The notes below the pieces were generated by a model. It saw nothing but the letters and a program-made list of their open reading frames with translations. It searched no databases and had not been told where the DNA came from. Below are positions 3,293-20,824 of a stretch of DNA of 64,000 nucleotides, piece after piece. Position 1 is the first letter of the stretch, and each line of letters opens with the position of its first letter. Position numbers and translations under genes: made by a program. The stretch is from Zoogloea dura (GTDB lineage Bacteria > Pseudomonadota > Gammaproteobacteria > Burkholderiales > Rhodocyclaceae): NCBI RefSeq assembly GCF_012927165.1, contig NZ_JABBGA010000021.1:1-64000 (forward strand). The letters run 5' to 3'.

Positions 3293-4465
3293 CTAGCGCT
3301 CCGCCACCACCATCAGGTTGCGGGGCGTCAGGCTGCGTTCGCAGAAGGTGCCGAGGCGGGCCTGGAAGCCGGCTTCTTCCAGGCCCAGCGCCACGTCCAG
3401 GGCGAGCCAGATCTCCAGCGGGCGGCGGAAGGCGTGGCGGACCAGTTCCAGGCGGCGGACTTCGCCACGGCGCTGTTCGCCGGTGGCGAGCCAGTGGGCT
3501 CCGTCGATCCCGGCGCCCACTGCCAGCCCTTCGCGCTCGGCCAGGCGCAGGCAGTATTGCGTGAAATCGCCCGACAGCCAGCTGGCGGGCACCGGCTTGA
3601 AGGGGCGGATGGCCTCGCCCAGCATGGCGTTGCGCAGGGCCACGAAGCCGAGCTTCCAGGCCTGGTCGCGGGCCAGCCGTTCACGGATTCGGCGCACGGC
3701 GGTAACGGTTTCGGTGACGGCCAGGCGCAGGGTATTGCCGTCGAGTGACAGATCGGCGTCCCGGTTGAGGGGGCGGTAGCCGTCCTGGGCGCCACGGTAA
3801 TAGCAGCAGGGGGCGAGGCGGTAGGCGTGGGCTTCGTCCTCGGCGGCGTTGCGCACCAGGGTCCGGTGCAGTTCGCCACAGGCGTGCAGGGCCAGCACGC
3901 TGCGGCCCCGCAGCAGCGGGCGGGAGGCGGGGGCCAGGGCGTCGGCGCACACCACGGCCTGCTCGATGCCGGCCCGCCGGGCCAGGTGGAGTGCATCCTC
4001 GCAGAGGGTCGCGTCGATTTCCAGAGAGCTCACCGCTTGCTGGTCGCTGAAGGCCAGGCGCCGGCCCAGGTGCCCCTTGCCGGCACACCATTCCAGCAGC
4101 GGCGCCGACGAGGCTGGGGCGTGCCTGGCGAAGGCCTCGATCTGCAGGCGTTTGCGCTGGGGGATGCCCCAGTCGAACTGCGCGCAGGTGGGGGCCAGTT
4201 CGCGGGCGGGCAGGGCCGGCAACTTGCACAGCGCGGCGAGCCGCGCGGCATCCGGGAAATGGCGGGCCAGCCAGTCATACAGGGCTTCCGGGCTGTCGGC
4301 GAGGCTGGCCAGCGTGGCGTCGTCCAGCTGCAGGGCTGCTTCGGCCAGGCCCGGCCACTGCTCGCACCAGGCCGGCCGGCGCAGGTAGAAGGGGGAGGCC
4401 TGCCAGAGGTCCTGGTGAGTCTGCAGGCAGTCCTGCAGGTCGAGAAAGTGTTCGCGCAGAGTCAT
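3293..4465 (-). CDS. class I SAM-dependent methyltransferase (Methyltransf_32 / METTL25-GSTCD type)
   Basis: A 390-aa predicted cytoplasmic methyltransferase. Motif I reads LLEWCAGKGHLGRRLA (around residue 125). Later segments SVLALHACGELHRTLVRNA and LAPCCYYRG resemble the GKGHLG / LHxCGxL / CCY signature of the METTL25/GSTCD-like group, whose targets are poorly known; a protein or RNA substrate is possible. The start overlaps the stop of the upstream octaheme cytochrome gene by 4 nt (ATGA), so the two are co-transcribed and probably translationally coupled. That pairing is unusual because one product is periplasmic and the other cytoplasmic. It converges with the M20 gene, 10 nt between stops. 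Confidence 0.78.
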   Translation of the reverse strand: MTLREHFLDLQDCLQTHQDLWQASPFYLRRPAWCEQWPGLAEAALQLDDATLASLADSPEALYDWLARHFPDAARLAALCKLPALPARELAPTCAQFDWGIPQRKRLQIEAFARHAPASSAPLLEWCAGKGHLGRRLAFSDQQAVSSLEIDATLCEDALHLARRAGIEQAVVCADALAPASRPLLRGRSVLALHACGELHRTLVRNAAEDEAHAYRLAPCCYYRGAQDGYRPLNRDADLSLDGNTLRLAVTETVTAVRRIRERLARDQAWKLGFVALRNAMLGEAIRPFKPVPASWLSGDFTQYCLRLAEREGLAVGAGIDGAHWLATGEQRRGEVRRLELVRHAFRRPLEIWLALDVALGLEEAGFQARLGTFCERSLTPRNLMVVAER

Positions 4466-6684
4466 GGCCGTCGCCCCAGGGCGGGGTCGTCAGGGTTGAT
4501 GTCGGCGAGGCGGCGCAGGGTCGTCTCGGCCGCGGTGGTGTCGCCGGCCTGGCGCTGGTAGCCGGCGAGCGCCAGCAGCAGATCCCGTTCGCCGCGCTCG
4601 CGGGCGGCGTTCTCGAGGACCTGGATGGCTTCGTTCCGGCGTCCTGCATCGGCCAGCAGCGCGGCATGCAGATAGGCCGTGCGGCCGCTGGCCGACGGCA
4701 GGGGGGCGGCCCTGGTCAGCAGGGCCAGGGCGTCGGCCTTGCGTTGCTGGCGGATCAGGCCGAGGGCCAGAGCCTCGTGCAGGGCGGCCTCCTGGGGGAG
4801 GCGTTTGAGACCGTCGCGGAGCAAGGCTTCGGCGTCGCTCTCCCGCCCCTGGCGGCGCAGCAGATCGGCCAGGTTGATGATGCCGGCCAGGTAGGCCGGA
4901 TCGAGCCGGAGGGCCTGGCGCAGGGCCTGTTCGGCGCCACCGATGTCGCCCGTGGCTTCCAGCAGGGGCGCCAGGCCCAGCCAGGATTGCGGGAAGTCGG
5001 CGTTCTCCCGGGCTGCAGCCTCGGCCTCCCGGCGGGCCGCCAGCCAGGCTTCGCGCCGGGCCGGGGCCAGCTGGGGAAGGGCCGGGGCGAGGGCGCGGGC
5101 GGCTTCGATGCGCACGGCGCGCAGCGGGTCGGCGAGCAGTGGCTGCACCTCGCGCAGCGCCTCCCGCGGGGCGAGGGCCGCCACCGCGTGGATCGCGGCG
5201 ATGCGCAGCCTGCCATCCGGGTCGGCCAGGGCGGCAAGCGCCAGGCGGGCCGCAGCGGGGCCGGGGTAGGCGGCCAGTTCTTCCAGGGCTTCGGCCCTCA
5301 CGATGGGCGGCTGGGCGGCGTCGCCGGCGATCCGCTGCAGCCCGGCCGCGGCGCCGGGGCGCATGCCGCGGGCGGCGGCGAAGGCCTGGCCGTAGTGGTA
5401 TTCGGCGCGGCGGCCGTCGCCATACCAGCGCGCCACCGCCGCCGCGGCCCAGGCCGGGTCCTTGTCGGTGTGGCACAGGTTGCAGGCGTTGGGCGAGGCG
5501 GTCTCGGCCGACAGATCCGGGCGGGGGATGCGGAAGGCGTGGTCGAGCCGCGGGTCGACGCCCATGTAGCTGCGCTTGGGGGCGTGGCAGTCGACGCAGC
5601 TCACCGGCGTGTCGTGATGGTGGTGGGCCGGGCTGTCGTAGTCCTTGCGCTGCAGGCCGCGGGTGTCCACGTGGGGGCCGGCGGCGGGGCCGACCGGGTT
5701 GTGGCAGCCGGTGCACAGGGCGTTGCCGGCGGCCCGGGTCTTGCCCGAGTGGGCGTCGTGGCAGTCGGTACACACCAGCCCCCTGGCGTGCATGCGGCTC
5801 TGCTGCCAGGAGCCGAGGTTGAAGACTTCGTCGCGCTGCTGGCCATCATTGAAATAGCGCCCGGCGGGCAGCCCGACCGGCAGGGCGTGGTCGAGCAGGG
5901 GCTGGCCGACCGGGTAGGCGGAGGTCAGGGTGGCGCGCAGCACGTGGCAGTAGCCGCAGGCCTCGGTCTGGACCTGCCCGTTGCCGGCCCGCAGGTCGGC
6001 GGCGAAGCCCTTGTGGGGCGGGGCTTCGCCGCTGCGGCGGCCGCGGGCCCAGGCCAGGTGCCCGCCGGCGGGGCCGTGGCAGGCCTGGCAGGTCACGCCC
6101 TGGGCGGCGTAGGTGGTGGCGTAGCGGCCGCTGACCGGGTCGTAGTTCTTGCGCAGCCCGGTGCTGTGGCAGGCGGCGCACATGGCGTTCCAGTTCTGGG
6201 GCGGGCGGCTCCAGTGCAGCACGTCCCGGTAGTCGATGCGCTCGTCCGGGTGCAGGCTGTACCAGCGTTTGCCCTTGACGTCCCAGGCCGTGGTGAGGGC
6301 CTGCAGGCGTCCGCCGGGCAGGGCCACCAGGTATTGCTGCAGGGGTTCCAGGCCGAAGGTGTGGTGAACCTCGAAATCACGCCGGCGGCCGTCCGGTCCG
6401 TCGGTGTTAACAAAGAAGCGGCCGCCACGTCGGAAGAAGCGGGTGAGCTGGCCGTCCTGGCGGAAGCTGCCGCCATCGAACAAGCCCTTCACCGTGGCCG
6501 CCGTGGCGCTCTGCATGGCGCGGGCATGCTGGGAGCCGGCGTGGCTGCGCTGCTGGGCGGCGTGGCAGGCGGCGCAGCCGGCCTCATCCACCAGGCTGTG
6601 CTGCGCGGCGGGGGCCGGCACGGCGGACAGGATGTTCACGAACAGCGCGATGAGCAGGATGGCAAGAAAACGGCAGGCGGGCAT
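4462..6684 (-). CDS. octaheme c-type cytochrome with HEAT-like and TPR domains
   Basis: A 740-aa exported protein. A hydrophobic signal peptide (residues about 5-27, ending VPAPAA) is followed by eight CxxCH haem-binding motifs between about residues 37 and 415: CAACH, CAACH, CQACH, CGYCH, CTDCH, CTGCH, CVDCH and CNLCH. Next come alanine-rich HEAT-like repeats (about 440-540), then TPR-like repeats to the C-terminus (LGLAPLLEATGDIGGAEQAL and similar). The haem part resembles cytochrome c554-type multihaem domains used in periplasmic electron transfer. The repeats suggest a protein-docking or scaffolding role. No catalytic identity can be assigned. It overlaps the downstream methyltransferase by ATGA. 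Confidence 0.85.
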   Translation of the reverse strand: MPACRFLAILLIALFVNILSAVPAPAAQHSLVDEAGCAACHAAQQRSHAGSQHARAMQSATAATVKGLFDGGSFRQDGQLTRFFRRGGRFFVNTDGPDGRRRDFEVHHTFGLEPLQQYLVALPGGRLQALTTAWDVKGKRWYSLHPDERIDYRDVLHWSRPPQNWNAMCAACHSTGLRKNYDPVSGRYATTYAAQGVTCQACHGPAGGHLAWARGRRSGEAPPHKGFAADLRAGNGQVQTEACGYCHVLRATLTSAYPVGQPLLDHALPVGLPAGRYFNDGQQRDEVFNLGSWQQSRMHARGLVCTDCHDAHSGKTRAAGNALCTGCHNPVGPAAGPHVDTRGLQRKDYDSPAHHHHDTPVSCVDCHAPKRSYMGVDPRLDHAFRIPRPDLSAETASPNACNLCHTDKDPAWAAAAVARWYGDGRRAEYHYGQAFAAARGMRPGAAAGLQRIAGDAAQPPIVRAEALEELAAYPGPAAARLALAALADPDGRLRIAAIHAVAALAPREALREVQPLLADPLRAVRIEAARALAPALPQLAPARREAWLAARREAEAAARENADFPQSWLGLAPLLEATGDIGGAEQALRQALRLDPAYLAGIINLADLLRRQGRESDAEALLRDGLKRLPQEAALHEALALGLIRQQRKADALALLTRAAPLPSASGRTAYLHAALLADAGRRNEAIQVLENAARERGERDLLLALAGYQRQAGDTTAAETTLRRLADINPDDPALGRRP

Positions 6685-6947: not shown

Positions 6948-9137
6948 ATGAGCAGGGTGTCCGCGAAATTGGCCGTTGTGCTGGGCGTTGCCGCCGCCGT
7001 GGTGCTCGCCTGCCTGTGGTGGCTGGCCGGGAGCGGCCCGGGCCGCCAGGGGCCCGGTGCGCCGGTCGAGCGCGCCGCGGCGCCTGTGCCGGTGGCCGAA
7101 GCGCGGCAGCTGCGGCTGGGGCTCAACATCGCGGCCGGGAGCGCCCTGCATGCCGCGGCGGAGCTCTTCGCCGAGCGCGTGGCCGAGCGCAGCAATGGCC
7201 GCCTGAAGATCACCGTGCACCCCGACCAGCAGCTCGGCAGTGACGACCAGATGCTGGAGATGGCGCGCAACGGCAGCCTCGACCTGGTGCTGACGCCGAC
7301 GGCCAAGCTCAGTTCGGCCGTGCCGGCGATGCAGTACGCCGATCTGCCCTTCTACTTCTCCAGCCGTGAAGAGCTCTACGCCATGCTGGATGGCGAGCCC
7401 GGCGAGCTGCTGCTGTCCAAGCTCGGCCGTATCGACCTGGTGGGCCTGACCTTCTGGGAGAACGGCTTCAAGCAGTTCACCGCCAATATGCCGATCCGCC
7501 GCCCGGAGGACTTCGCCCGGCTGCGCATCCGCACCATGAAGAGCCCACTGATCGCCGACCAGTTCGCGTCCCTGGGGGCCACGCCCATCCCGATCGACTT
7601 CCACGCCACCTACCAGGCCCTCAAGGACGGTGCGGTGGATGGCCAGGAGAACCCGCTGGTGGCCATCGTGGGCATGCGCTTCCACGAGGTCCAGAAGCAC
7701 CTCACCCTGTCCAACCACGCCTATCTGGCCTATGTCTTCTCGGTGAGCCGCAAGGTTTACGAGACCCTGTCGCCGGAAATGCGCGAGCTGATCCGCCAGA
7801 CGGCGCGTGAACTGACCCTCTGGGAGCGGCAGGAGACCGCCCGGCGGGAGGCCGACTTCATTGCCCGGATCCGTGAGGCCGGTGTCGAGATCCACACCCT
7901 CTCGGTGGACGAGCGGCGGCGCTTTGCCCAGGTCATGGCGCCGGTCGCCGACAAGTTCGGCTTCGAGGTGGGCTACGACCTGCTCGCCAAGACCGAGGAG
8001 CTGCGCTTCGCCCTGGCGGCCCGCGGCGGCGAGGCGAAAGGCCGGCAGCCCTGGGTGCTGGCTCTCGACGCCGACCTGTCGGCGCGCGGTGCGCAGGCAG
8101 GCGGGGCGATCTACCGGGGCGCCCAGATGGCCATCGACGACATCAACCGCAAGGGCGGCCTGCTCGGCGCGCCGCTGCGCCTGCTGGCCCGCGACCATGC
8201 CGCCAACCCCATGGCGGGGCGGCACAACCTCGAGCTCTTTGCGGCCATTCCGTCCGTGCTGGCGGTGATGGGGGGCATGCACAGCACCGTGGTGACCGAG
8301 GAACTCGACGACATCCACCGCCTGAAGATGCCTTATCTCGTGCCGTGGGCGGCGGCCCAGGGCATCACGCTGCATGAGCTTCGGCCGAGCTACACCTTCC
8401 GGGTCTCCATCAACGATACGCAGGTGGCGCCCTTCCTGCTGGAGCGGGCGCTGCGCAAGCACTCGCGGCTAGCCGTGCTCATCGAACAGTCGCCGTGGGG
8501 GCGCAGCAACGAAGCCGCGCTGCGGCCGCTCATCGAACGCCTGCCGGCTGGCAGCGTGGAGCTGGTGTGGTTCCAGGACGGCGACACGGGGGTCGATGCC
8601 ATCGTGGACGGGCTGGTCCGGGCCGGCCGCCAGGCCATCGTGTTCGTCGGCAACGGCATCGAGGCCGGCGTTGTCGTGCGGGCTCTGGCCCGCCAGGACA
8701 AGCCGATCCCGATGTTCGCCCACTGGGCCCTGGTCGGCGGCGATTTCTGGGGCGCCAACCAGGCCCGTCTCGAGAAGGTGGATCTGCGCTTCATCCAGTC
8801 GGTGGTGGAGGACGACGCGGCGCGGAACCGCGCCTTCGCCGCCTTCCTCGCCAGCTACCGGCAGCGCTACGGCCTGGGCGCCGGTGCGCCGGTGCCCTCG
8901 CTGATGGGCAGCGCCCATGCCTACGACGCGGTGCACCTGCTGGCCCAGGCGGTGCGGCGCGCCAACTCGCCAGACCGTGGGGCGATCCGCAGTGCGCTGG
9001 AGTCGGGACTCAGCCATGCCGGCGTGATGCGGGACTACCGCCCGGCCTTCACCCCGCAGCGCCATGACGCGCTGGATCGCAGCCAGCTGAGGCTGGCCCG
9101 TTTCGACGGGCGGGGCCGCATCGTGCCGGCGGACTGA
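6948..9137 (+). CDS. fused DctP-type (TRAP) and LivK-type (ABC) periplasmic binding protein, probable sensory input
   Basis: A 729-aa protein with two complete binding-protein domains. After a membrane-targeting N-terminus (residues 1-27; VLAC at 19-22 could be a lipobox, otherwise a signal anchor), residues about 52-350 are a DctP/TRAP domain. It has the conserved ligand-arginine motif LRIRT (Arg195) and the signature TYQALKDGAVDGQENP. Residues about 367-720 are a Peripla_BP_6/LivK-type domain (GAIYRGAQMAIDDINRKGG, VMGGMHSTVV). No TRAP permease (DctQM) or ABC permease/ATPase is nearby. The next gene, 3 bp on, is a hybrid histidine kinase, so sensing is more likely than transport. ATG 6948 has GGAG 9 nt upstream; an in-frame ATG at 6897 would only add an unlikely leader. 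Confidence 0.85.
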   Translation: MSRVSAKLAVVLGVAAAVVLACLWWLAGSGPGRQGPGAPVERAAAPVPVAEARQLRLGLNIAAGSALHAAAELFAERVAERSNGRLKITVHPDQQLGSDDQMLEMARNGSLDLVLTPTAKLSSAVPAMQYADLPFYFSSREELYAMLDGEPGELLLSKLGRIDLVGLTFWENGFKQFTANMPIRRPEDFARLRIRTMKSPLIADQFASLGATPIPIDFHATYQALKDGAVDGQENPLVAIVGMRFHEVQKHLTLSNHAYLAYVFSVSRKVYETLSPEMRELIRQTARELTLWERQETARREADFIARIREAGVEIHTLSVDERRRFAQVMAPVADKFGFEVGYDLLAKTEELRFALAARGGEAKGRQPWVLALDADLSARGAQAGGAIYRGAQMAIDDINRKGGLLGAPLRLLARDHAANPMAGRHNLELFAAIPSVLAVMGGMHSTVVTEELDDIHRLKMPYLVPWAAAQGITLHELRPSYTFRVSINDTQVAPFLLERALRKHSRLAVLIEQSPWGRSNEAALRPLIERLPAGSVELVWFQDGDTGVDAIVDGLVRAGRQAIVFVGNGIEAGVVVRALARQDKPIPMFAHWALVGGDFWGANQARLEKVDLRFIQSVVEDDAARNRAFAAFLASYRQRYGLGAGAPVPSLMGSAHAYDAVHLLAQAVRRANSPDRGAIRSALESGLSHAGVMRDYRPAFTPQRHDALDRSQLRLARFDGRGRIVPAD

Positions 9138-9140
9138 AGC

Positions 9141-11813
<2,673 letters not shown>

Positions 11814-11829
11814 TCTTTCGGATCTGTGT

Positions 11830-11847
11830 CTATCGGATATCCGACAG
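11830..11847. promoter_or_regulatory. palindrome upstream of ccoG
   Basis: TCGGATATCCGA (11833-11844) is a perfect 12-bp palindrome within imperfect flanks, and another TCGGAT occurs just upstream (about 11818). It lies 60-75 nt before the ccoG start, between the kinase and ccoG genes. It could be an operator; no known regulator site is recognised. Confidence 0.25.
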
Positions 11848-11906
11848 CCTGAATCTGTTTCCATATGTGCCCCGGTGTTCTACTCCATGCCAGGAGGAAC
11901 ACCGCG

Positions 11907-13310
11907 ATGAACGCACCTGCACCCGTCAATAAAGTCCGCGAAGCCAAGCTCGAGCTCTACCGCAAGAAAGGCAAGATCCACGCCCGGGAGGTGCGTGGCC
12001 GCTTCAACACCCTGCGCTGGGCCGTGGTGTGGGTCACCCAACTGATCTTCTTCGGCAGCTGCTGGCTGCAATGGAACGGCCAACAGGCGGTGCATTTCGA
12101 CATCGCCCACGAAAAGCTCCGCCTCTTCGGGCTGGTGCTGTGGCCGCAGGATGCGCTGCTGCTGGCGATCGCCCTGATCCTGGCGGCCACCGGGCTGTTT
12201 CTCGTCACCGCGGTGGCGGGGCGGCTGTTCTGCGGGTTTGCCTGTCCGCAGACGGTCTATACCTCGATCTTCATGTGGATCGAGACCCGCGTCGAGGGCG
12301 ACCACCTGGCCCGCCTCAAGCTCGACCAGTCTCCCGCCTCGCCGCGCAAGCTGCTCCTGCGCGGCACCAAGCACCTGCTGTGGGGGCTCTTCGCGGTGTG
12401 GACGGCGATCACCTTCGTCGGCTACTTCACCCCGGTGCGCGAGCTGCTGCCCGCCGTCGCCGGCTTGGAGCTGGGCCCCTGGGAGATCTTCTGGCTGATC
12501 TTCTACGCCGTGTTCACCTATGTGCAGGCCGGCCTGGCCCGCGAGGCGGTGTGTCAGCACATGTGTCCGTATTCGCGCTTCCAGGGGGTGATGTTCGACA
12601 GCAACACCCGTACCGTGAGCTACGACGTGCAGCGCGGGGAACCCCGCAGCCGCCAGGCCAGGGCCGCCGCCACCGCCGCGAATGGCGCGAACGCGGTCAA
12701 GGGCGACTGCGTCGATTGCAGCATCTGCGTGCAGGTCTGTCCCACCGGCATCGACATCCGCGACGGCCTGCAATACCAGTGCATCAACTGCGGCCTGTGC
12801 GTGGATGCCTGTGACGACGTGATGACCCGCGTCGGCAAGCCGGTCGGCCTGATCCGCTTCGCCTCCGAGCAGGAGCTGGCCGGCAAGCCGGCCCGCGGCG
12901 GCAGGCCGCGCCTGGCCGTGTATGGCGGCCTGATCGCGGTCTTCGTCGCCCTGGGGGCCTGGACCGCCACCCAGCGCTCCCTGCTGCTGGTGGACATCCT
13001 GCGCGACCGGGGCAGCCTGGCCCGGGAAGCCGCCGATGGCCGCATCGAGAACGCCTACACCCTGAAGCTGATGAATCTGGTCGAGGAGGCCCGCGACTTC
13101 GAGGTGTCGGTGAACGGCCTGCCCGGCATCGAGCTGGTCGGGGCCAGCCGCTTCGCCGGCGTGCCCGGCGGCATCCGCGAAGTGCATGCGACGGTGGCGG
13201 TGCCCGCCGATGCCGGCCCCGCCGGGGCCCACCGCATCAACTTCGAGATCCGCGCCGTGCAGGACCCGGCCACCCGCATCAGCGAGAAGAGCACCTTCGT
13301 GCTGCCCTGA
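11907..13310 (+). CDS. ccoG: cytochrome c oxidase accessory protein CcoG (FixG/RdxA)
   Basis: A 467-aa membrane iron-sulfur protein that supports cbb3-type cytochrome oxidase assembly, where CcoG acts as a cupric reductase (family knowledge). Several transmembrane helices are interrupted by GRLFCGFACPQTVYT. A two-[4Fe-4S] ferredoxin region reads CVDCSICVQVCPTG and CINCGLCVDACDD. The C-terminal part (about 340-467) has one more helix and an Ig-like FixG domain. Start ATG 11907 has a perfect AGGAGG 9 nt upstream; an in-frame start at 11865 is less likely. The ccoNOP oxidase genes are not in this window. It is followed 34 nt later by sulfite reductase, an odd neighbour. Confidence 0.95.
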   Translation: MNAPAPVNKVREAKLELYRKKGKIHAREVRGRFNTLRWAVVWVTQLIFFGSCWLQWNGQQAVHFDIAHEKLRLFGLVLWPQDALLLAIALILAATGLFLVTAVAGRLFCGFACPQTVYTSIFMWIETRVEGDHLARLKLDQSPASPRKLLLRGTKHLLWGLFAVWTAITFVGYFTPVRELLPAVAGLELGPWEIFWLIFYAVFTYVQAGLAREAVCQHMCPYSRFQGVMFDSNTRTVSYDVQRGEPRSRQARAAATAANGANAVKGDCVDCSICVQVCPTGIDIRDGLQYQCINCGLCVDACDDVMTRVGKPVGLIRFASEQELAGKPARGGRPRLAVYGGLIAVFVALGAWTATQRSLLLVDILRDRGSLAREAADGRIENAYTLKLMNLVEEARDFEVSVNGLPGIELVGASRFAGVPGGIREVHATVAVPADAGPAGAHRINFEIRAVQDPATRISEKSTFVLP

Positions 13311-15476: not shown

Positions 15477-17303
<1,827 letters not shown>

Positions 17304-18186: not shown

Positions 18187-18325
18187 TGCTCGCCATGAGC
18201 CGTGCGCAGAACAAGCCCTGAATAGTCGGCGTAAGCTGTTATTGAATGCTAGGCTGGCTGATCGGATGCGGGAGGCAGAAGATAGATTGACTTTGCGCGC
18301 CTGATGCCGGGAACGTGGAGGCGTG

Positions 18326-20824
18326 ATGAAAAACCCATCCTTGAAATGGATCCTGCCAGCCCTGTTCACGCTCCTGCTGGCCGGACTTGCATTCATTCAA
18401 GGCACGTCATGGCGCAGCAGCAGCGATGTGCATGCACTCCTGGAGCTGTCGTCCTCGCTGGTCGCCGTCACTGCGGGCGTGATGGTCCTGGTCCACTTCT
18501 TCACGACAGGGCGCTGGTTTTATTTGCTGGTGTCGATCGGCTTCATCCAGGTCGGGGCCGAGGAGCTGATCCACTCGGTCTTTTCGTTCGACCGGATCTG
18601 GGACGTTGTGTCCCAGCAGAACCGCTGGGCCATTTCATCCACCTGGCTGGCTGGCAGGGCCACGCTGGTGACCTGTGTGCTGGTCGGAGTCTTGTTCCGC
18701 GACAGGGTCATCACGCCTGAACGCCGGATCAGCAAGGCATTCACGCTGAATGCCGCGGGCTTCCTGACCTCCGCCACCCTCGCCCTCGCGATCTTTTCAT
18801 CCGACACGCTGCCGGGCTTCGTGCGAGTCGGCACGACCAGCAAGCAGCTGATCGAAATAGGCCTCGGATCACTCTACCTGCTGGCTGCCTGGCTGATCTT
18901 CAGGATCCACCGGAGGGCCGGTGGCGGGCCGCTCTTGCTGAGCCTGCTGCTCTGCTTCATCAGCGAGGCCTTTGTCCATTTCTATGTCTTCAATGCCGCG
19001 TATTTCTACGATGCACACTGGGATGCGGCACATCTCCTGAAGCTGATCGGCTACTTCTTCCCGATATTCGGCGTGTGGGGAGAGACCATAAAGATATACA
19101 GGAAATCCCGGCGGCAGCTTGTGACCGTTGAAAACGAGGTGGCGCAGCGGATAAGGATGGAGTCCGAGCTGAAGAGGCACAGGGAGATCCTGGAAGAGGC
19201 CATAACGAAGAGAACGCAACAGTTGGCGGACGCCCGTGATCAAGCCAATAGTGCCAACGCTGCAAAGGGTGAATTCCTGGCAAACATGAGCCACGAAATC
19301 AGAACACCCATGAATGCGATCATCGGGATGACGGATCTGGCGCTGCGTGGAGAGCTCGCCCCCAAGCAAAGGGCCTATCTGGAAAAGAGCAGTACGGCGG
19401 CCAGGGGCCTGCTCGTGATCATCAACGATATCCTGGACTTCTCGAGGATAGATGCGGGCAAGCTGAACCTGGAGAGCAGCGAGTTCTCCCTCGAGGAGGT
19501 GCTCAAGGATGTCGCCGACCTGTGCCTCATGCGGACCCAGGAAAAATGTCTTGAATTGCTGTTCGATATGGATCCCGAGATTTCAAGACTGGTCCTGCGG
19601 GGCGATCGTGTCAGGCTCGGCCAGGTCATCCTGAATCTGGTCTATAACGCGATCAAGTTCACCGATCGGGGGGAGGTCTATCTGGGGATATCCCGGGCTG
19701 CGTCCCAGGGGAGCGAGATCACCCTTCAGTTCGAGGTGCGTGACACGGGCATCGGAATGACGGCGGACCAATGCCGCCAGGTCTTCCTGGCCTTCACCCA
19801 GGCCGACACATCGACAACCCGGCGCTTTGGTGGAAGCGGATTGGGGCTGGCGATCTCGACCCGCCTGGTCGAGCTCATGGGCGGCAAGATCTGGGTTCAA
19901 AGTGCCCCTGGCCTGGGAAGCCAGTTCTTCTTCACCGCCCGCTTCGGCGTTCAGGGAGTGGGGGGGCGCATCAAGCCGGACCCCGTTGTGCTGCCGGATC
20001 CGCTCCGCGTGCTGGCGGTCGATGATAACCACACGGCTCTCGAGATCATCAAGGAGTCCCTCCACGGCATGCAGTGTGAGGTATCCACTGCCCTGGATGT
20101 GCCATCTGCCATCGACATGCTGGTGTCCGCACAGATCAGGGGCCAGGCCTTTCATGTAGTCCTGATGGACTGGCAGATGCCCGGGACGAGCGGCCTGGAT
20201 GGATTGCGGGAGATCAGGGGGAACAGCAATATTTCAAAGACCCTGCTGCTCGTGATGATGACGGGGTACAGCCGGGATGCCCTGAAGGAGGCGGCAAAGG
20301 ATGTCATGTACGACGGCATCGTCGAGAAGCCCATCCTGCCATCAAGCCTCCACGGCGCAATCGTCCAGCTGTTCGGAGAGGCCGGAAAGGCCTTCGACCC
20401 CATTGCGAAGAGGAATGATCGCGGGGAGGCCGGGTTGAAGTGGGAGGGGGTCAGGGTGCTCCTTGTGGAAGACAACTTCTTCAACCAGGAACTGGCGAAG
20501 GAGCTACTCCAGGAGGCCGGAATCCAGGTCACCTTGGCCGGTGACGGACGGGCTGCCATTGAAAAGCTCGATCAGGAGGAGTTCGATCTTGTCCTGATGG
20601 ACTGGCAGATGCCCGTGATGGATGGCTTTGAAGCCACGAGACGCATCCGTGAGGAGCCACGCTTCCGCAACCTGCCCATTCTGGCCATGACGGCGAACGC
20701 CATGATCGGCGATCGGGAGAAATGCCTCGCCGCAGGCATGAACGATCACATCCCCAAGCCTATCGATGGGCATCACCTATTGAAAATGCTGGAGAAGTAC
20801 CTGGGGCCCCGTGTGCCCATATAG
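18326..20824 (+). CDS. hybrid histidine kinase with multi-helix membrane sensor, two REC domains
   Basis: An 832-aa kinase. The N-terminal 250 or so residues form about seven transmembrane helices with little periplasmic sequence, similar in style to MASE-type integral sensors. A coiled coil, HisKA ([17 protein letters not shown]), HATPase_c (FGGSGLGLA) and two receivers ([13 protein letters not shown] and [13 protein letters not shown]) follow; no Hpt. ATG 18326 lies 5 nt after GGAG. Codon use differs from its neighbours: many AGG/AGA arginines and ATA isoleucines and visibly lower GC, which suggests later acquisition. No cognate regulator is adjacent. Confidence 0.88.

Follow-up and report, generated by a model that had tools for sequence, protein, structure and literature searches.

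The first 64,000 nucleotides of contig NZ_JABBGA010000021.1 from Zoogloea dura (assembly GCF_012927165.1), referred to here as the window, carry a gene for a fused solute-binding protein (SBP), P0001, directly followed by a gene for a hybrid histidine kinase, P0002 (Table 1). P0001 occupies a single frame without an internal stop (6897/6948-9137, +); the frame permits either start codon, and a similar upstream extension occurs in a close relative, L040 (loci are numbered with L, genomes with G). As the initial annotation had claimed, one polypeptide joins a complete DctP domain, of the tripartite ATP-independent periplasmic (TRAP) class, to a complete LivK-like domain of the ATP-binding cassette (ABC) class. 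Pfam matched DctP at residues 61-337 (283 bits) and Peripla_BP_6 at residues 375-686 (99 bits). The first domain exceeds the cut-offs of TIGR00787 and PF03480 and has the DctP fold, and an AlphaFold2 (AF2) model of the whole protein reached a mean predicted local distance difference test score (pLDDT) of 89.7 and a predicted template modelling score (pTM) of 0.86. The arginine of LRIRT and the VDGQENP motif are kept; R195 presumably plays the part of R147 in SiaP, and K175 is assumed to line the pocket by the same analogy.

P0002 matched HisKA, HATPase_c and two stretches of Response_reg, confirming a two-receiver hybrid kinase. Its ectodomain is predicted from modelling to have a Cache/LuxQ-like fold. 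At the sequence level, dCache_1 had no Pfam match in P0002 itself and was matched in 10 of 14 other receptors scanned, always under the Pfam cut-off of 45 bits; a profile of the ectodomain had no match among PDB sequences up to E = 1.

Table 1. Coordinates of features of the fused SBP gene, the kinase gene and their downstream border in the window.
Feature	Residues	Position	Strand	Basis or remark
Fused SBP P0001	729 (746 from alternative start 6897)	6948..9137	+	open reading frame (ORF) list, Pfam, AF2 model
N-terminal hydrophobic helix	6-27	6963..7028	+	AF2 helix; probable uncleaved membrane anchor
Low-confidence linker, helix to DctP	28-50	7029..7097	+	pLDDT <50 at 28-49
DctP (TRAP SBP) domain	51-356	7098..8015	+
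K175, presumed ligand contact	175	7470..7472	+	K in 51/53 fusion rows, R in 2
R195 (of LRIRT), presumed DctP ligand arginine	195	7530..7532	+	51/53 fusion rows
N235 of VDGQENP (230-236)	235	7650..7652	+	51/53 fusion rows
LivK-like (Peripla_BP_6) domain	366-729	8043..9134	+
W467 (in PWAA)	467	8346..8348	+	50/53 fusion rows; common to fused and standalone receptor-linked LivK
Hybrid histidine kinase P0002	890	9141..11813	+	ORF, Pfam; 3 bp after SBP gene
Periplasmic ectodomain	~40-250	9258..9890	+	Cache/LuxQ-like fold, predicted
HisKA	355-420	10203..10400	+	Pfam
HATPase_c	467-582	10539..10886	+	Pfam
First receiver domain		10941..11294	+	Pfam Response_reg; limits approximate, read from sequence
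Second receiver domain		11388..11720	+	Pfam Response_reg
Breakpoint against close Zoogloea relatives L039, L040		11739..11822	.	blastn; relatives hold ~2.1-2.3 kb more

Recurrence of the fusion and its pairing with a receptor

A scan of genome contigs yielded 60 loci, 36 of them (L039-L073, L087) with the fusion, whole or cut, and 24 with a single domain. The fusion recurs across beta- and gammaproteobacteria, in Magnetococcales and in records labelled SAR324, Desulfobulbaceae and Sulfuricurvum. Further labels include Zoogloea, Dechloromonas, Rhodoferax, Comamonadaceae, Methylomonas, Methylobacter, Azoarcus and Parazoarcus, so that the record labels, many of them of metagenome-assembled genomes (MAGs), span at least four phyla (Pseudomonadota, Thermodesulfobacteriota, Campylobacterota and SAR324). 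Searches of whole genomes detected the fusion in 8 of the 150 genomes sampled from the family (that of G138 being cut), in 8 of 369 from the class (E up to 1e-100; another 2 matched by LivK alone) and in 27 of 398 of a phylum sample (E up to 1e-80; three partial, G597, G600 and G673), where one domain matched in 18 additional genomes; the samples overlap, all containing the window's genome, and few candidates were scored per genome, so these counts are lower bounds. Two copies are present in 8 phylum-sample genomes (e.g. G537, G559 and G540) and one in the window's genome. The nearest relative of the window's fusion, in the Zoogloea MAG L040, is 91-92% identical.

Because the same junction recurs in dozens of independent genomes, an annotation, assembly or frame error uniting two genes, named beforehand as an observation that would overturn the fusion, is ruled out; nothing was found in favour of such an artefact, and its probability is negligible. 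Two other candidates were rejected. An 817-residue open frame round one DctP match of the window's genome is not a fusion (the ORF in L006 has 365 residues), and L017 is not a split fusion; it looks like an ordinary TRAP operon of DctP and a following ORF, which in BLAST matched DctM genes from the genome of the window.

Across these genomes the SBP gene adjoins a gene for a transmembrane receptor, the arrangement that characterizes SBP-dependent receptors. By a profile of the ectodomain (A3), 64 of the 69 fusion rows have a receptor no more than 150 bp downstream; the five misses are three cut loci (L016, L052, L072), one with a broken frame (L056) and one whose receptor lies 477 bp away (L103). 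No such receptor adjoined any of 35 DctP-only rows, a set that includes one cut fusion (L071), one duplicate (L149, of L002) and two partial rows (L148, L151). In a first set of 46 loci, a kinase-like ORF lay directly downstream in 41 rows (the window counted twice, with some duplicates), at -89 to +108 bp except for L056 (417 bp), and 16 of the 41 share a 4-bp overlap between the two genes; the remaining loci are cut (L016, L052, L071, L072) or hold a TRAP-type gene (L017).

The association with a receptor was therefore upheld, but the partner is not always the kinase originally envisaged. In L073, a record labelled Sulfuricurvum, the same fused SBP precedes a dCache-GGDEF-EAL protein with no kinase (7935-12391), and the output modules behind the shared ectodomain comprise hybrid kinases, PAS/GAF kinases and GGDEF-EAL without a kinase. 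Similarly, the absence of Hpt, from which a relay continuing in other proteins had been deduced, holds for P0002 (no Pfam match; 26 Hpt matches elsewhere in the genome) but is not general. By Pfam, Hpt is present in the same protein in 7 of 12 fusion-partner receptors of other loci (L042, L044, L058, L065, L130, L131, L133) and missing from 5 (L050, L062, L068, L070, L073). From their length alone (888 and 898 residues) the receptors of the close relatives L039 and L040 probably lack it, and it was found in neither of the two partners of standalone LivK proteins scanned.

Permease linkage, conservation and relatives of the two domains

Permease genes were sought with profiles built locally from 6 DctM and 10 LivH/M-type sequences of the window's genome. 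Among 39 fusion loci of more than 8 kb, 37 of them distinct, none had a DctM-like gene, compared with 13 of the 24 controls (13 of the 14 of DctP type), DctQ not being searched. A LivH/M-like gene occurred in a single one of the 39 (L045, where it lies at the flank's far end) versus 10 of 24 controls (10 of 10 LivK-type), LivG and LivF not being searched. In agreement with the initial annotation, which saw no membrane subunits nearby, neither DctM nor BPD_transp_2 matched on the window's contig (C14); the genome as a whole has 6 DctM and 27 BPD_transp_2 matches. A role as transporter component was rejected on this gene linkage, and homologues are not routinely beside permease genes of the types searched. 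Since the gene almost always adjoins one kind of receptor, the fused SBP is probably part of a sensor and not of a transporter.

Of 58 non-identical fusion rows, 55 have a hydrophobic 19-mer ahead of DctP, at a median distance of 20 residues (two of the three exceptions are 5'-cut), and a lipobox pattern was seen in 2. Read by eye, the N-terminal helix is probably a membrane anchor and not a cleaved signal.

Conservation was counted in 54 rows, of which 53 have a receptor ORF close enough to be included (that of L103 is too distant). The rows include same-genome copies from two collections, with 55 distinct among 65 complete fusion rows; L056, whose SBP ORF ends early, and the cut loci L016, L052 and L072 were left out of the trees and of the counts, and L125, the duplicates L134 and L135 and one further row out of the counts as well. 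Mean pairwise identity is highest for DctP (0.569), followed by LivK (0.403) and the ectodomain (0.368; 1378 pairs). The partial correlation of divergence is 0.71 between LivK and ectodomain and 0.65 between DctP and ectodomain, but such correlations count for little as evidence, since the modules have a common history. Besides W467, the LivK lobe keeps H592 (50/53) and R485, D490 and Y659 (53/53 each); R485 and D490, we presume, may be general residues of the family.

Each lobe has been impaired in some loci. L126 and L127 have lost K120, N172, R195 and N235, with an insertion in the alignment near R195, and have kept LivK and the receptor. L125/L155 (3924-5612) lacks LivK profile positions ~108-262 and has kept DctP, the receptor and an HD-GYP gene that overlaps the receptor gene; this loss may be an assembly fault. 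Thus neither pocket seems to be needed everywhere. L126, L127 and L156 are fusions with a fast-evolving DctP lobe.

With the fusion's LivK profile, 13 standalone proteins (L128, L129, L018-L023, L025-L027, L029, L035; 329-413 bits) score best among relatives that are not fused, and 10 of the 13 have an ectodomain match (33-96 bits) alongside. None of 10 LivK rows at 110 bits or below has one. The receptor-linked standalone LivK proteins apparently form a common group, to which the fusion's LivK belongs, apart from other LivKs. In alignment A4, W467 is present in 17 of 17 rows (9 fused, 8 standalone) and H592 in nearly all 17. The standalone proteins have a hydrophobic stretch immediately before the mature domain, read by eye as a cleavable signal. 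Pfam identified the partner in L128 as a PAS hybrid kinase and that in L129 as a PAS-GGDEF-EAL protein. In the DctP tree, one branch (89/82) splits fused from TRAP DctPs with a single change. In the LivK tree, fused LivKs need three changes, two of them forced; because L105 and L106 sit with the standalone proteins, one fusion followed by loss of DctP and two separate gains both fit.

Cyclic di-GMP genes near the fusion

Local profiles detected a gene of cyclic di-GMP (c-di-GMP) metabolism in the flank of 25 of 48 fusion rows, or 23 of 40 distinct loci (L010-L015, L134 and L135 merged with their duplicates), with HD-GYP in 14 of the 40; the corresponding figure for controls is 2 of 24 loci. 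The HD_5 background, 110 matches in seven genomes of ~33 Mb, predicts ~0.04 per 12.5 kb, and HD_5 was observed in 3 of 7 fusion loci of those genomes (P ~0.002 by our own arithmetic, which ignores kinship). Pfam scans of 20 neighbouring proteins, picked mostly for receiver similarity, identified REC-HD-GYP proteins upstream in L044, L046, L052 and L071 and downstream in L058, L061, L063 and L067, and a REC-GGDEF gene together with an HD-domain gene at L068. The output of the receptor may often be c-di-GMP. As a c-di-GMP enzyme adjoins the pair in many lineages, the pathway may often tune c-di-GMP, and with it attachment or biofilm state, to extracellular solutes.

A candidate co-receptor and competing explanations

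Taken together, it is likely that the fused SBP is a membrane-tethered periplasmic co-receptor that docks on the downstream Cache-type receptor; tethering and docking are inferred. Feeding no transporter, it would dock on the ectodomain as in the pairs LuxP-LuxQ and NspS-MbaA and would set receptor activity through a ligand-driven change between open and closed states, in a presumed direction and with presumed ligands. Of the two lobes, LivK would more likely provide the dock, given that its closest kin are standalone proteins mostly beside distantly related receptors, and the DctP lobe would provide a second, strongly conserved input. Output would pass through a two-receiver phosphorelay in the window and through GGDEF-EAL in Sulfuricurvum. 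By family analogy, DctP would bind an organic acid and LivK possibly an aromatic or amino-acid-like ligand.

It is a serious possibility, if short of an even one, that the protein is a two-ligand coincidence detector in which DctP binds an organic acid, LivK binds a different ligand and the two jointly set receptor activity. Both domains are complete in the divergent rows compared and retain the residues counted above, and P0001 gives a single confident model; against this stand the DctP pocket losses of L126/L127, the truncated LivK of L125/L155, and the chance that R485 and D490 are general to the family. The same losses argue against a strict AND gate, and the AND/OR input first proposed is hypothetical. 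A sole DctP sensor with LivK as a scaffold docking on the receptor is conceivable, with some doubt. It would suit DctP as the most conserved module, the linked divergence of LivK and ectodomain, and the retention of DctP in L125/L155. However, nearly every row retains a complete LivK fold with its conserved residues, the DctP-ectodomain correlation is almost equal, and L126/L127 have lost the DctP pocket. Standalone LivKs, moreover, adjoin related receptors without any DctP, for which reason LivK probably senses something in those proteins. That the protein is an orphan transport SBP serving TRAP or ABC permeases encoded elsewhere, with the kinase reporting on transport, is improbable: such permeases exist in the genome, but linkage to them is nearly absent in the fusion loci and that to a receptor nearly constant, the hydrophobic helix is widespread, and the fused DctPs branch apart from transporter DctPs.

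Several observations weigh against the docking co-receptor or its c-di-GMP output. Fold ranking of the ectodomain puts KinD and DctB, both direct ligand binders, above LuxQ; the ectodomain may for that reason itself bind ligand. Three of the 13 standalone LivK relatives have no ectodomain match alongside, and outside Pseudomonadota the fusion is known from one or two records each, mostly MAGs. A c-di-GMP gene is missing from the flank in 17 of 40 distinct loci, some with short flanks, and the contrast with controls is weak because these are largely other taxa. Other regulators occur nearby: OmpR-type in L042, REC-HATPase in L059, L062 and L087, and REC-SpoIIE in L066, which has an HD-GYP gene besides. 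In the window, the nearest GGDEF gene (15477-17303) is on the opposite strand, 3.7 kb beyond the kinase, and no HD-GYP gene is near, the closest on the contig being at 92 kb.

LuxP and NspS are each a single SBP from another family, and both SBP domains of GlnPQ are of one class. Relative to LuxP-LuxQ, the Vibrio autoinducer 2 receptor pair (PDB 2hj9, 1zhh), which has a single SBP, the present system has two SBP domains of different classes and a probable anchor. The polyamine receptor NspS-MbaA (PMC8967002) is an SBP-linked receptor that makes or degrades c-di-GMP, like that of L073. GlnPQ (PMC8025302) also has two tandem SBP domains, but they are linked to the membrane domain of an ABC transporter and are not known to pair with a receptor. 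The first domain resembles TRAP DctP in fold and score and differs in having no DctM-like gene near, a C-terminal LivK and a probable anchor; a DctP-family match need not imply transport. The system is probably a variant of the SBP-dependent receptors of the LuxP-LuxQ or NspS-MbaA type, its novelty being two fused SBP classes as input. We tentatively extend this to a family of tethered co-receptors joining TRAP DctP to ABC LivK, through which one Cache receptor would read two chemically different solutes and drive a phosphorelay or c-di-GMP turnover, an interchangeable two-input front end in at least four phyla. About 10 SBP-activated sensor kinases have been characterised, according to PMC9602780. 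No DctP-LivK fusion was found in the literature at the level of titles and abstract beginnings, with most subscription papers outside coverage. The fusion offers a phylogenetically broad and genetically constant case of an SBP-receptor pair, with a two-SBP input and a kinase or c-di-GMP enzyme as output, in which to test the mode of SBP docking on Cache domains and the possible integration of two solutes by a single receptor. PDB 5ere, a Desulfohalobium 'extracellular ligand binding receptor', combines a LivK-like part (33-197) and a Cache-like part (353-593) in one chain, with no DctP part detected in the comparisons made, and is a possible template for LivK-Cache docking.

Genes scanned near the pair encode a multihaem cytochrome/TPR protein, a FixG/CcoG-like protein, a NIR_SIR haemoprotein, DUF934 and a GGDEF protein. 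In L039 (6411-8426) and L040 (11991-14084), GGDEF and EAL profiles matched a gene ~100 bp after the kinase and before a ccoG-like gene. This gene is absent from the window at that point, and the last ~25 codons of the window's kinase fall beyond the breakpoint with these relatives. The multihaem cytochrome, with HEAT/TPR-like repeats, is encoded on the opposite strand (4462-6684, -), upstream of the SBP gene. Another hybrid kinase with two receivers, which has a MASE3 membrane domain (18323-20824, +), lies 6.5 kb downstream of P0002.
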